A stretch of 64,000 nt of DNA from Thermopolyspora flexuosa. GTDB lineage: Bacteria; Actinomycetota; Actinomycetes; Streptosporangiales; Streptosporangiaceae. Of the stretch, positions 1,839-63,136 are shown one piece after another; position 1 is the stretch's first letter, and each line of letters begins with the position of its first letter. Location: assembly GCF_006716785.1 (NCBI RefSeq), contig NZ_VFPQ01000001.1, forward strand, positions 806,001 through 870,000, written 5' to 3'. The notes under the pieces were generated by a model that saw only the letters and a program-made list of their open reading frames with translations, was not told where the DNA came from and ran no database searches. Position numbers and translations under genes: made by a program.

Positions 1839-3443
1839 GTGAGGACGGTACGGGACGCGGCGTTCGACGTGCTGCGCCGCACCGGCATGACCACGATCTT
1901 CAGCAACCCCGGATCCACCGAGATCCCGCTGCTCGCCGGGCTCCCCGACGATTTCGCGTTCGTGCTCGGGCTGCACGAGGGCGCCGTGGTCGGCATGGCC
2001 ACCGGCTGGGCGATCGCGCACAACAGGCCCGCGCTCGCGCTGCTGCACACCACCGCCGGGCTCGGCAACGCGGTCGGCGCGATCGCCACCGCGCGGTCGA
2101 ACCGCGCCCCGGTGGTGATCGTCACCGGCCAGCAGGACCGCCGCCACCTCGCGCTCGAGCCGTTCCTCGCCGGGCACGGGCTCACCGCGCTCGCCGGGCC
2201 GTACCCGGTGTGGACGGCCGAGCCGGTGCGCCCCCAGGAGGTGCCCGGCGCGATCGCCCGCGCCTGCCACGAGGCGGCCACCCGGCGCGGCCCCGCGATC
2301 GTCGTGGTGCCCCAGGACGACTGGGCGCAGCCCGCCGAGGAGGCCGTGCTCGCCGCCCCCGGCACCGTGCTGCGGCCCGCCGCGGTGACCGACGCCGACG
2401 TCGCCGAGCTCGCCCGGCTGCTCGCCGGGGCGCGCTCGCCCGCGCTCGTCACCGGCGCGGGCGCGGACTCGCCCGAGGCGTGGCGCGCGCTGGTCGCGCT
2501 CGCCGAGCGGCTGCGCTGCCCGGTCTTCGCCGAGCCGTTCGGCTCCCGGGCCGGGTTCCCGCAGGACCACCCGCAGTACGGCGGGCTGCTCCCGGCCGAA
2601 CGCGAAGGGCTGCGCGAACGGCTGCGCGGCCACGACGTGGTGCTCGCCGTGGGCGCGGCCGCGTTCCGCCAGTACGTCTACCGGCCCGGCCCGCTGGTGG
2701 CCGCGGGCACGGTCGTGGCGGTCGTCTCCGACGACCCGGACGAGGTGCACCGCAGCGCGGCCGAGCTCGCCGTGCTCGCCCCGCCCGCCGCGGTCTGCGA
2801 ACGGCTCGCCGCGCTCGTGCCCGAGCGGACCGGCGTGGCCGCGCCCTCGTTCGCCCGTGACACCGCTCCGCCGTACACCCCGGGCGAGCCGCTGCGGGCG
2901 GTGCACGTGCTCGGCGAGCTCGCGGCGCGGCTCGCGCCCGAGACGATCCTCGTGGAGGAGACCCCCTCGTCCCGGCCGGACCTGGTCCGGCTGATCCCGG
3001 CCCGGCGGCCGCTCGGCTTCCTCGCCGCGGGCATGGGCGGGCTGGGGTTCGCGCTGCCCGCCGCGGTCGGGCTGCGCATGGCCGCGCCGGACCGGCCCGT
3101 GGTTGCGGTGACCGGGGACGGCGCGGCGCTGTACGGCATACAGGCGTTGTGGAGCGCGGCGCACTACCACGTGGGCGTGTTGTTCGTCGTGCTCGCCAAC
3201 GGGCGGTACGCGGTGATGGACCGGCTCGCCGAGGGCATCGGCGCCGGCAAGGCGCCGTGGCCGCCGTTCCCCGAGGTGAGCGTGGCCGGGCTGGCCCGCT
3301 CGCTCGGGTGCCCGGCACGCCGGGTGGAGGACCTAGCGGACCTCACCGCCGTGCTGGACGAGGTCATCCCGGCACTCGGCCGGCGTGACGAGCCGCTGCT
3401 GCTCGACGTCGCCGTGGTGCCCGACACGGAGTACCGGTTGTGA
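1839..3443 (+). CDS. mdlC: benzoylformate decarboxylase-like ThDP enzyme
   Basis: A 534-residue thiamine-diphosphate enzyme, close to the roughly 528 residues of benzoylformate decarboxylase. Ser26 in FSNPGSTE, Glu47 in GLHEGA and His70 in LLHTTAGLGN fall at the same numbers as the catalytic residues I recall for the Pseudomonas putida enzyme. The ThDP/Mg motif is GDGAALYG through LANGRY near the C-terminus. The second catalytic His (281 in P. putida) appears replaced by Tyr279 in FRQYVY, so the substrate may differ. The GTG at 1839 was chosen because AAGGA lies 9 bases upstream; the frame extends further but without signal. Its stop overlaps the next start (GTGA), so it is coupled to the exporter gene. 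Probable role: non-oxidative decarboxylation of a 2-oxo acid. Confidence 0.82.
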   Translation: MRTVRDAAFDVLRRTGMTTIFSNPGSTEIPLLAGLPDDFAFVLGLHEGAVVGMATGWAIAHNRPALALLHTTAGLGNAVGAIATARSNRAPVVIVTGQQDRRHLALEPFLAGHGLTALAGPYPVWTAEPVRPQEVPGAIARACHEAATRRGPAIVVVPQDDWAQPAEEAVLAAPGTVLRPAAVTDADVAELARLLAGARSPALVTGAGADSPEAWRALVALAERLRCPVFAEPFGSRAGFPQDHPQYGGLLPAEREGLRERLRGHDVVLAVGAAAFRQYVYRPGPLVAAGTVVAVVSDDPDEVHRSAAELAVLAPPAAVCERLAALVPERTGVAAPSFARDTAPPYTPGEPLRAVHVLGELAARLAPETILVEETPSSRPDLVRLIPARRPLGFLAAGMGGLGFALPAAVGLRMAAPDRPVVAVTGDGAALYGIQALWSAAHYHVGVLFVVLANGRYAVMDRLAEGIGAGKAPWPPFPEVSVAGLARSLGCPARRVEDLADLTAVLDEVIPALGRRDEPLLLDVAVVPDTEYRL

Positions 3444-4630
3444 ACCACAGCACGCTCAAACGCGCCCTGCTCGTCGTCGCGTTCACCCTCGCGGCGCTCA
3501 ACCTGCGGCCCGCGCTCGCCAACGTCTCGCCGCTGCTCAACGAGATCCGCGCCGATCTCGGGCTGAGCGCGGCCGCGGCCGGGGCGATCACCACGGTGAT
3601 GGTGCTCTGCCTCGGCGTGCTCAGCCCGGCCGCGCCGGTGCTGGTCCGCCGCTTCGGGCTCGACCGCACGCTGCTGATCGCCCTGGTGGTGCTCACCACC
3701 GGGATCGCGCTGCGCAGCGCCGACGGGGTGCTGTGCCTCTACGCCGGCGCGGCGGTGGCGGGCACCGCGATCGCGGTGATGAACGTGATCATGCCGGGCG
3801 TGGTGAAGGAGCGCTTCCCCACCCGGATCGGGCTGTTCACCGGCATCTACACCTCGGCGCTCGTCGCCGGGGCCGCGGCCGGATCCGCGCTCATGGTGCC
3901 GCTGGAGGAGGAGTACGGCTGGCGCCTGGCGGCGGGATCCGCGGCGGCGCTCGCGTTCCTCGCCGCGGTGCTGTGGTACCCGCACGTCCAGCGCGGCCCG
4001 GCCCCGATCCAGCCGGTCGAGCCCGGGCGGTACCGCAGGCTGCTCGGCCGCCGGGTGACCTGGTACGTCACCGGGTTCCTCGGCGTGCAGTCGATGACCT
4101 TCTACCTCATGCTCGCCTGGCTGCCCACGGTGTTCCGGGACGCCGGGCTGTCCGCGGTGGACGCCGGGAACCTGCTCGGCCTCACCAACTTCGTGCAGAT
4201 CGCCGCGACGCTCGCCATGCCGCAGATCGCGGCGCGCGCCCGGAGCCAGGCGCCGCACGCCGTACTGTCCACGATGCTCACCCTCACCGGGTTCGCCGCG
4301 GTGATGGTCGCCCCCGCCACGGTGCCCTGGCTGTGGATGATCATCCTCGGCCTGGGCCAGGGGTCGACGATCTCCCTCGCGCTGCTCATCATCACCCTGC
4401 GGGCGCCCGACCCGACCTCGGTCACCGCGCTGTCCGCGGTCGCCCAGTCGGTCGGGTACGTGTTCGCCGCGGCCGGGCCGGTGCTCATCGGCATGATCCA
4501 CGAGCTCACCCACGGCTGGACCGTGCCGCTCGGGGTGGCGGTCGGCCTCAGCGTGGTCCAGCTCGGCTTCGGGTACCTGGCGGGCCGCCCGGTGCCGCAG
4601 CGTGCGCGGCCCGTCCCGGTTTCGTCATAG
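3440..4630 (+). CDS. CynX/NimT-type MFS transporter
   Basis: A 396-residue, roughly 12-helix permease. The opening stretch, with AALNLRPALANVSPLLNEI, is the signature of the CynX/NimT subfamily (cyanate and nitroimidazole transport proteins). Helices follow at regular spacing, with a hydrophilic mid-loop around residues 180-200 (QRGPAPIQPVEPGRYRR). The GTG start overlaps the decarboxylase stop by four bases, so the two proteins are probably made together. A reasonable reading is transport of the substrate or product of the decarboxylase. The true substrate is not visible from sequence. Confidence 0.85.
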   Translation: MNHSTLKRALLVVAFTLAALNLRPALANVSPLLNEIRADLGLSAAAAGAITTVMVLCLGVLSPAAPVLVRRFGLDRTLLIALVVLTTGIALRSADGVLCLYAGAAVAGTAIAVMNVIMPGVVKERFPTRIGLFTGIYTSALVAGAAAGSALMVPLEEEYGWRLAAGSAAALAFLAAVLWYPHVQRGPAPIQPVEPGRYRRLLGRRVTWYVTGFLGVQSMTFYLMLAWLPTVFRDAGLSAVDAGNLLGLTNFVQIAATLAMPQIAARARSQAPHAVLSTMLTLTGFAAVMVAPATVPWLWMIILGLGQGSTISLALLIITLRAPDPTSVTALSAVAQSVGYVFAAAGPVLIGMIHELTHGWTVPLGVAVGLSVVQLGFGYLAGRPVPQRARPVPVSS

Positions 4631-61327: not shown

Positions 61328-61927
61328 ATGGGCAGTCACAGCCACGAGGTGACCGACGCGATCCTTGACACGCTCAAGCGCGCCGGCACCGGGCTCAAGG
61401 ACGTCGGCGTGCGGTTCGCCCTCGCGGGTGGCTGCGCCGCCTACGCGCGGGGCGCGGCCCCGTCACTGCACGACGTCGACTTCGTGCTGCCCGAGGACGA
61501 GGTGCCCGCGGCCCTGGAGCGGCTGCGCGAGCTCGGCTTCCGCACCGTCAAGCCGCCCGAGGACTGGCTGGTCAAGGCGTACGACGAGAGCGGCCACCTG
61601 GTCGACCTCATCTTCCGGATCGCCGAGCGGCCGATCACCACCAAGGTGATCGAGCGGGCCGAACTGCGGTCCGCGGCCGCGGTGAACCTGCCGGTGCTCG
61701 AGGCGACCGACCTGGTGGTGAGCTGGCTGCTGCCGCTGTCCGAGCACGGCTGCGACTTCGGCGCCCTGCTGCCGATGGTGCGGGCGATGCGCGAGCAGGT
61801 GGACTGGGACCGGGTGGCCGCGGTCACCGCGGGCTCGCCGTACTGTTACGCGTTCCTCACCCTGCTCGACCGCCTCGGCGTGGCGAACCCCAAACTGCCG
61901 CCGCCGTACCAGGAGGAATGGCCCTGA
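61328..61927 (+). CDS. nucleotidyltransferase-fold protein
   Basis: A 199-residue protein of the minimal-nucleotidyltransferase type. The core is FALAGGCAAYARGAAPSLHDVDFVLPEDEVPAALERLRELGF, with GG and the metal-binding DVD. Then VKAYDESGHLVDLIFRI (third acid) and LEATDLVVSWLLPLSEHGCDF. Such proteins include antibiotic nucleotidyltransferase-like and AbiEii-like members; this one lacks an obvious resistance context. GAGG lies 10 bases before the ATG. Function unknown. Confidence 0.8.
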   Translation: MGSHSHEVTDAILDTLKRAGTGLKDVGVRFALAGGCAAYARGAAPSLHDVDFVLPEDEVPAALERLRELGFRTVKPPEDWLVKAYDESGHLVDLIFRIAERPITTKVIERAELRSAAAVNLPVLEATDLVVSWLLPLSEHGCDFGALLPMVRAMREQVDWDRVAAVTAGSPYCYAFLTLLDRLGVANPKLPPPYQEEWP

Positions 61928-62029
61928 CACGAGGCTGCGAACGATTGTCAGCGATTTCCGGCGGCCTCGTTTTCCGTGGCAATTTCGTTTCGAAACGTGC
62001 ACAACCGGTGGACGATTGGGTAGCATTTT

Positions 62030-62045
62030 GTGGGAGCGCTCCCAC
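62030..62045. promoter_or_regulatory. CelR/CebR-type operator
   Basis: GTGGGAGCGCTCCCAC is a perfect 16-bp palindrome whose 14-bp core TGGGAGCGCTCCCA is the operator of the cellobiose-responsive LacI repressor (CelR in Thermobifida, CebR in Streptomyces). It lies 17 bases before the start codon of the HATPase gene and five bases before its ribosome binding site. Confidence 0.85.
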
Positions 62046-62061
62046 TCCAAAGGAGGAGCAG

Positions 62062-62604
62062 GTGTCCCACTTTCTGGCGGCGGAGCGGGCGCAGCGGGTC
62101 GGCTGCGGTGGTTTCGAGTACGGCGCCGAGCGCGGGGCGGCGTACGACGACGGCGTGTGCCGCGGGGTCCCCGATTTCGTCGCGAATCCCGCCCCGGCTC
62201 CCGCGCGCACCTACGACTGCCCGCTCGCGCCCGACGCCGGGAGCGCGCGCACGGCCCGCGCCGCGGTACGGCGTGAGCTCGCCGCCTGGGGCGCGGCCGA
62301 GCTGGTCGAGGACTGCTGCCTGATCGTCACCGAGCTCGTCACCAACGCGGTACGGCACGGCGCCGGCGCGATCCACCTGCGGCTCGGCACGAACGGCCGG
62401 TGGGTGTACGGCGAGGTGTACGACGGGGGAGAGCACCTGCCGCGGGTGCGCCCCGGCGACCCGGACGCGACCGGGGGACGGGGGCTGCTCATCGTCGACC
62501 GGGTGGCCGACGACTGGGGCTGGGCCCGGATGCCGGGCGGCGGGAAGATCGTCTGGTTCCTGCTCGGCGCGCGCGGCGAGCCGCCACCGGTCACAGGGGC
62601 TTGA
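62062..62604 (+). CDS. HATPase-domain regulator under a CelR-type operator
   Basis: A 180-residue GHKL protein. The N box is CCLIVTELVTNAVRHG, the G1-like region VYGEVYDGGEHLPRV, and the G2 region ATGGRGLLIVDRVADDWGWARMPGGGKIVWFLLG. The N-terminal 65 residues (VSHFLAAERAQRVGCGGFEYGAERG) have no family match. The protein should act as an anti-sigma factor or a partner-switch kinase. AGGAGGAG before the GTG is the strongest ribosome binding site in the window. The perfect CelR/CebR palindrome just upstream implies control by cellobiose. Its end overlaps the convergent membrane-protein gene by 14 bases. Confidence 0.87.
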   Translation: MSHFLAAERAQRVGCGGFEYGAERGAAYDDGVCRGVPDFVANPAPAPARTYDCPLAPDAGSARTARAAVRRELAAWGAAELVEDCCLIVTELVTNAVRHGAGAIHLRLGTNGRWVYGEVYDGGEHLPRVRPGDPDATGGRGLLIVDRVADDWGWARMPGGGKIVWFLLGARGEPPPVTGA

Positions 62605-63136
62605 ACAGCACGATCAGCACCTGCGGCAGCAGCGGCACGGCGACCGCGGCGTAGGCGACGCACCCGGCGGCCACGATGGTCCGCGTCGCCCATCGGGCGC
62701 CGGGCGCGGTGAGCGCCGCCACGAGCGCGTAGGCGGGGATGCCGCCGAACAACGAGAACCAGAGGAGAAAGCCGGGGTACGGCAAGGGATCCGCGTGCGC
62801 CGCGGCCAGCTCCCAGATCAGGACCAGGAGGGCCGCGCCACCGAGGGCGACCGGGAAGGCCGGCCGTACCCGCAGCAGGTGGAGCAGCGGCCAGGCGAGC
62901 ACGAGCGCGGCCCAGCGTCCGCCCTCCCAGGCGAGGAACACGTAACCCAGGCAGCCGAAGAGGCCGCACGCGCGGTCGGACGGGACGACCATCGCCACCG
63001 CCGCCATCCAGAACAGCAGGCTGACCGGAAGCGCCAGCCCGGCGGAACCGGCCAGCATCGCCCGTAGGCTCACCTCGGTGAGCCGTCCGGAATGCACCTC
63101 CGCGGATCGCTTCACGACCGCATGGTGATGCGCCAC
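62591..63136 (-). CDS. four-helix membrane protein (paralogue A)
   Basis: A membrane protein of up to 181 residues. Helices: LAGSAGLALPVSLLFWMAAVAMVV, WAALVLAWPLLHLL, VALGGAALLVLIWELAAA and FLLWFSLFGGIPAYALVAALTAPGARWATRTIVAAGCVAYAAVAV. The arrangement and the FGGIPAYALVAALTAPGARW segment match the neighbouring gene at 63218-63745, so the two arose by duplication. Start uncertain: GTG 63136, 63115 or 63073 are possible. Function unknown. Confidence 0.7.
   Translation of the reverse strand: MAHHHAVVKRSAEVHSGRLTEVSLRAMLAGSAGLALPVSLLFWMAAVAMVVPSDRACGLFGCLGYVFLAWEGGRWAALVLAWPLLHLLRVRPAFPVALGGAALLVLIWELAAAHADPLPYPGFLLWFSLFGGIPAYALVAALTAPGARWATRTIVAAGCVAYAAVAVPLLPQVLIVLFKPL

Follow-up and report, generated by a model that had tools for sequence, protein, structure and literature searches.

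A conserved CebR/CelR-type operator in front of a single-domain GHKL ATPase gene in Thermopolyspora flexuosa

The HATPase locus and its promoter

The window analysed here, i.e. the whole stretch of 64,000 nucleotides from the Thermopolyspora flexuosa genome, carries near its end a short gene for a GHKL ATPase, preceded by a perfect palindrome with the sequence of a CebR (CelR) operator. The features of this locus are as follows.

61998-62003, plus strand: -35-like hexamer TGCACA (TTCACA in most relatives), read from the sequence
62021-62026, plus strand: -10-like hexamer TAGCAT after a spacer of 17 nt, read from the sequence; TANNNT-like hexamers stand at the matching place in relatives
62030-62045, no strand assigned: CebR/CelR operator GTGGGAGCGCTCCCAC, a perfect 16-base palindrome read from the sequence, holding the 14-mer TGGGAGCGCTCCCA at 62031-62044
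62049-62058, plus strand: ribosome-binding site AAAGGAGGAG, read from the sequence; many relatives have a similar site
62062-62604, plus strand: gene for a single-domain GHKL ATPase (HATPase_c_2), 180 aa, GTG start; the same start is found in the congeneric genome G057
62332-62358, plus strand: N box E91-L-V-T-N95-A-V-R-H99 of the ATP site; across the orthologue alignment E91, L92 and N95 each reach a conservation of 97% or more
62422-62430, plus strand: D-x-G box (D121, G123), from the orthologue alignment
62476-62487, plus strand: G2 box GRGL (residues 139-142), from the orthologue alignment

The first-pass annotation had reported a perfect cellobiose-repressor operator in front of this gene, 17 bases from the start codon, and both statements agree with the sequence: three T separate TAGCAT from the palindrome, and 17 bases lie between the 14-mer and the GTG at 62062. 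The 5' neighbour, a nucleotidyltransferase-like gene (61328-61927), is on the same strand and the 3' neighbour (62591-63136, no Pfam family) is convergent, so that the HATPase gene looks like a one-gene transcription unit, as far as can be predicted from this arrangement. An earlier in-frame start at 61918, with which the operator would fall inside the gene, is not favoured, because the GTG start, the ribosome-binding site and the N-terminus recur in G057, where the reading frame is closed shortly upstream.

A strict sigma-70 promoter scan returned no promoter in the region 61998-62026, and the promoter was assigned by comparison with relatives, which share the layout TTCACA, TANNNT, operator, ribosome-binding site and start. 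A TTCMCA motif precedes the 14-mer by 31-41 nt in 77 of 84 orthologue promoters, which places the operator where transcription should start; in the window, too, the palindrome is thus expected to lie over the transcription start. We also noted a recurring AACAATCTTGTTTC-like element about 55-42 bases 5' of the 14-mer in HATPase promoters (e.g. L027 and L085).

The HATPase protein and its possible partner

The protein matches the Pfam domain HATPase_c_2 with an E-value of 1.2e-12, and the N, D-x-G and G2 boxes are almost invariant in an alignment of the query with 80 orthologue proteins, i.e. the domain and the intact ATP-site motifs of the RsbW/SpoIIAB type are both there. A structure model built from three sequences has a mean pLDDT of only 59.7, so that the fold match rests on its good core (approximately residues 50-120); all 11 PDB matches of this low-confidence model at E of 0.001 or below are to UsfX, SpoIIAB, RsbW or the RsbW domain of Rv1364c, most of the best-ranking structural alignments having an identity of 13-18%. 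A sequence search against solved structures yielded nothing useful. The top NCBIfam match, RsbA (NF041045), scores 58.8 bits, far short of the curated cut-off of 210; it comprises the C-terminal ATPase part and leaves model positions 1-164 of 303 unmatched. At its N-terminal side the window protein is about 45 residues longer than two Acrocarpospora orthologues. The domain, the intact boxes and the PDB matches together suggest that the protein plausibly acts like an anti-sigma kinase, of which it is a candidate member, and the domain and, more tentatively, the modelled fold agree with the initial description of the target as a GHKL regulator of anti-sigma type.

For the partner switch proposed along with that description, which would link the gene to a sigma factor or to development, no candidate partner gene turned up: neither the neighbours of the HATPase gene nor the operator-side genes scanned in the window genome (G000) and in the genomes G039 and G138 include one for a sigma factor, a STAS protein or a PP2C protein. 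It is therefore worth considering, as a possibility we hold to be real if rather doubtful, that the protein is an orphan GHKL ATPase with some other client, for instance as a substrate or inhibitor of a co-regulated Ser/Thr kinase. Besides the lack of these partner genes and the RsbA score below cut-off, such a role would fit the co-inheritance of the HATPase gene with a pair of genes for a Ser/Thr kinase and a second CebR-like LacI protein (laci2), found in 39 of the 43 genomes of a 150-genome sample whose HATPase match reaches 96 bits or more (HATPase genomes). Fold and motifs, however, point to the RsbW/SpoIIAB group, and actinobacterial anti-sigma kinases are frequently unlinked to their partners.

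The operator and its candidate readers

The window genome has 17 LacI-type genes. The CebR gene (C1:2952738; L003:12703-13728, plus strand) is preceded by genes for a solute-binding protein, two permeases and a GH1 enzyme and followed by a second GH1 gene, an arrangement equal to that described in the main text of PMC3377646; the CebR 14-mer is likewise the same in the relevant passages of PMC4898821 and PMC5332605. The first-pass annotation depended on a CelR/CebR homologue being encoded in this genome, and one is, together with a cellobiose-type ABC uptake operon, while the consensus operator TGGGAGCGCTCCCA lies in the promoter region of the HATPase gene. In the 150-genome sample, a CebR protein of at least 77% identity occurs in all 43 HATPase genomes and in 14 of the 107 others, a co-occurrence whose Fisher values overstate independence because the genomes are related. 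Given the presence of CebR in the window genome and in every HATPase genome of the sample, it is very likely that CebR represses the HATPase gene and that cellobiose lifts this repression.

A different reader, laci2 itself, appears rather improbable. The laci2 gene (L001:4358-5359, minus strand), whose product is 43% identical to CebR, is encoded together with the Ser/Thr kinase; its own promoter has the exact 14-mer in 30/30 loci, and its distribution (39/43 HATPase genomes versus 7/107 others) follows that of the HATPase gene. In addition, exact sites are few in three genomes without laci2 (three in G147, two each in G034 and G095) compared with 10-18 in same-genus genomes that have it, but these low counts coincide with the absence of GH48. 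What speaks against laci2 is that G022, G103 and G143 combine the HATPase gene and an exact operator with the absence of a laci2 orthologue (the same holds for G057, a genome 78% complete), and that the hinge motif AARxL, intact in 30/30 CebR proteins, is gone in 30/30 laci2 proteins, which differ in this mark from CebR orthologues. In the LacI family, the hinge helix is required for tight operator binding. From these comparisons CebR is the likelier reader and laci2 is probably another of its targets. The laci2 protein of the laci2/kinase pair (L001:2583-5395; G000:C1:51582-54394) may sense cellobiose without acting as a conventional repressor any more.

Orthologues of the HATPase protein (E of 1e-24 or below) were found in 86 of 345 genomes, representing 20 of the 70 genera of the order. 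Upstream DNA covered 85 of the 86 matched genomes and two further loci that repeat others by their flanks, giving 87 loci; G252 was left out because its match begins 19 bases from a contig end. The exact 14-mer is present upstream in 83 of these 87 loci, i.e. in 81 of 85 distinct ones, and a further locus (L112) has it with one mismatch. The operator is absent upstream of L124, L126 and L127, best-hit loci that we read as putative paralogues. None of 20 lower-scoring HATPase paralogue loci, taken as a control, has a match within three mismatches (L143 was covered for only about 240 bases upstream). The conservation is confined to the operator: the best-kept flanking base is common to 55 of 79 distinct flanks, no flanking position being higher, and the orthologous proteins are mostly 41-60% identical to that of the window while the 14-mer stays fixed. 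Outside the family, 394 genomes of the class gave five protein matches at E of 1e-22 or below, none with the operator at up to two mismatches in 450 upstream bases; one of the five has a three-mismatch sequence 406 bases upstream.

Within the window, the 14-mer at 62031-62044 is the sole match at up to two mismatches, with 0.59 expected by shuffling, and the window by itself is therefore not decisive. The genome scan that the first-pass annotation had proposed returned eight exact 14-mers in 5,765,274 bases and none with one mismatch; a reversed-pattern control gave no exact match and two at up to one mismatch. At up to three mismatches there is no enrichment (422 for the 14-mer versus 551 for the control), so that only the exact 14-mer is informative. 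At least one exact copy occurs in 113 of 150 family genomes, the control giving single hits in seven. The operator at the HATPase gene is, on this comparative evidence, more than chance; that the palindrome is accidental or non-functional, a view for which the missing enrichment at three mismatches and one exact site without an evident gene might be cited, has a negligible probability in the light of exact conservation in 81/85 distinct loci amid variable flanks and of 0/20 controls.

Genes behind the operator and the proposed role of the ATPase

The other exact sites of the window genome lie before cebE (two sites), the second GH1 gene (the one 3' of the CebR gene), an aldose epimerase gene, the LacI/Ser-Thr-kinase operon and a YcaO operon, and one is intergenic. 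The two sites before the uptake operon are 131 bases apart (G000:C1:2947634 and 2947765; L003:7635 and 7766), and pairs 120-130 bases apart occur in all eight relatives compared, which may mean looping. The intergenic operator (G000:C1:2750175; L002:6176) has no evident adjoining gene. The site at G000:C1:5017594 (L004:6595) stands before a thiazole/oxazole-type RiPP pair encoding a ThiF-like maturation protein (a weak match) and a SagD-type YcaO cyclodehydratase (L004:4510-6609 and 2547-4517, both minus strand), and suggests that peptide production might be under cellobiose control.

Operators in G138 and G039, whose genes were assigned by position and Pfam, extend to cellulases. In G138 they adjoin genes for GH48, GH6 (two), GH9 and LPMO, a polysaccharide lyase-like region and the laci2/kinase operon, and also epimerase, dehydrogenase and condensation-domain genes and a regulator-like region; the condensation-domain genes, of NRPS type, adjoin exact operators at L205 and L213 (G138:C1:1317727 and 7022876). 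G039 has nine perfect sites; they include sites in front of GH48, of two GH6 genes and of the laci2/kinase operon, and the operator stands at the HATPase locus of this genome as well. Both genomes also have paired sites near CebR; these, and a further site in G039, are assigned by position only to the uptake operon and to a gene for a beta-glucosidase.

The window genome is different, as no GH48 gene was found in it and its one GH6 match (C1:3522659) has no operator of zero or one mismatch nearby. In the 150-genome sample, GH48 is present in 37/43 HATPase genomes versus 39/107 others; the six HATPase genomes without it belong to the window genus (two genomes) and to the genus g23 (four), and GH6 is also absent from G022, G103 and G143. 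Since the HATPase gene persists in genomes without GH48 or GH6, it appears to go with the uptake of cellobiose and not solely with these cellulases. The original proposal that cellulose degradation products release a partner-switch regulator thus holds in part: the CebR homologue with its uptake operon, a perfect operator conserved in about 20 genera and an anti-sigma-type GHKL product all agree with it, but “cellulose degradation” is too strong for a genome with no GH48 and a lone GH6 match lacking an operator.

Our preferred reading, to which we assign a probability of roughly 0.7, is that the HATPase gene is a single-gene unit of the CebR (CelR) regulon and that its product passes an RsbW/SpoIIAB-type signal to a partner encoded elsewhere. 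The analysis shows the operator, its conservation, the regulator gene, the domain, the intact ATP-site motifs and a resemblance in fold; that CebR binds, that cellobiose relieves repression, that the product has anti-sigma activity and what its partner is are inferred. Without cellobiose, CebR would sit on the 14-mer over the transcription start and block the promoter; imported cellobiose would free CebR, and the GHKL ATPase would be made alongside the genes for cellobiose uptake and hydrolysis. The ATPase would then bind or phosphorylate its partner and so convey to another circuit that cellobiose is present; should the ATPase be an anti-sigma factor, inducing it would restrain a sigma factor for as long as cellobiose lasts. 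More speculatively, the three genes may form a cellobiose signalling branch, in which CebR represses both the GHKL ATPase and the Ser/Thr kinase with its hinge-less CebR-like sensor and which informs a sigma factor (of development, stress or antibiotic production) of cellobiose from any source; we mention it because the genes are mostly co-inherited and the ATPase persists in lineages without GH48 and GH6.

The HATPase gene probably reports cellobiose use to another control circuit. As a conserved one-gene target that CebR very likely represses and whose product resembles anti-sigma factors, it is a tangible candidate for a coupling between sugar supply and development in filamentous actinobacteria. 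In its main text, Anderson et al. 2012 (PMC3377646) list among CelR-regulated genes Tbis_2744 and Amir_1390, weakly similar to histidine-kinase ATPase domains, as well as two Ser/Thr kinases adjoining LacI genes, and suggest morphological development as a target; a CelR site before a HATPase gene and a possible developmental role have thus been in print since 2012. The same text cites Marushima et al. 2009 for the sparse aerial hyphae of a Streptomyces griseus cebR mutant, an observation with which the anti-sigma model would agree in direction, if loosely. The open-licence literature searched has no second paper that mentions Tbis_2744, and neither in it nor in the main text of PMC3377646 did we find an account of family-wide conservation of the operator at the HATPase gene. 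New here are this deep conservation, the co-inheritance with the operator-bearing pair of CebR paralogue and Ser/Thr kinase, and the persistence of the gene without GH48 or GH6.

Among known systems, the RsbA family (NF041045) shares with the window protein the C-terminal ATPase part and differs in the first 164 of its 303 positions and in the score (58.8 versus 210 bits). RsbW, SpoIIAB and UsfX share HATPase_c_2, the intact N, D-x-G and G2 boxes and perhaps, judging from the low-confidence model, the fold core, whereas neither a sigma factor nor a STAS antagonist is linked to the window gene and the identity is mostly 13-18%. Tbis_2744 of Thermobispora bispora and Amir_1390 of Actinosynnema mirum are similar as HATPase-domain genes listed as CelR-regulated; the main text of PMC3377646 names them in single genomes and does not cover family-wide conservation, promoter layout or fold. 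The closest parallel in regulation is the CebR/CelR regulon of Thermobifida fusca and Streptomyces, with the same 14-mer, uptake and beta-glucosidase genes and LacI-family regulator. Unlike that regulon, the window genome is without an operator-bearing (zero or one mismatch) GH48 or GH6 gene, and what is conserved as a target is the gene for a small signalling ATPase, not a catabolic gene.
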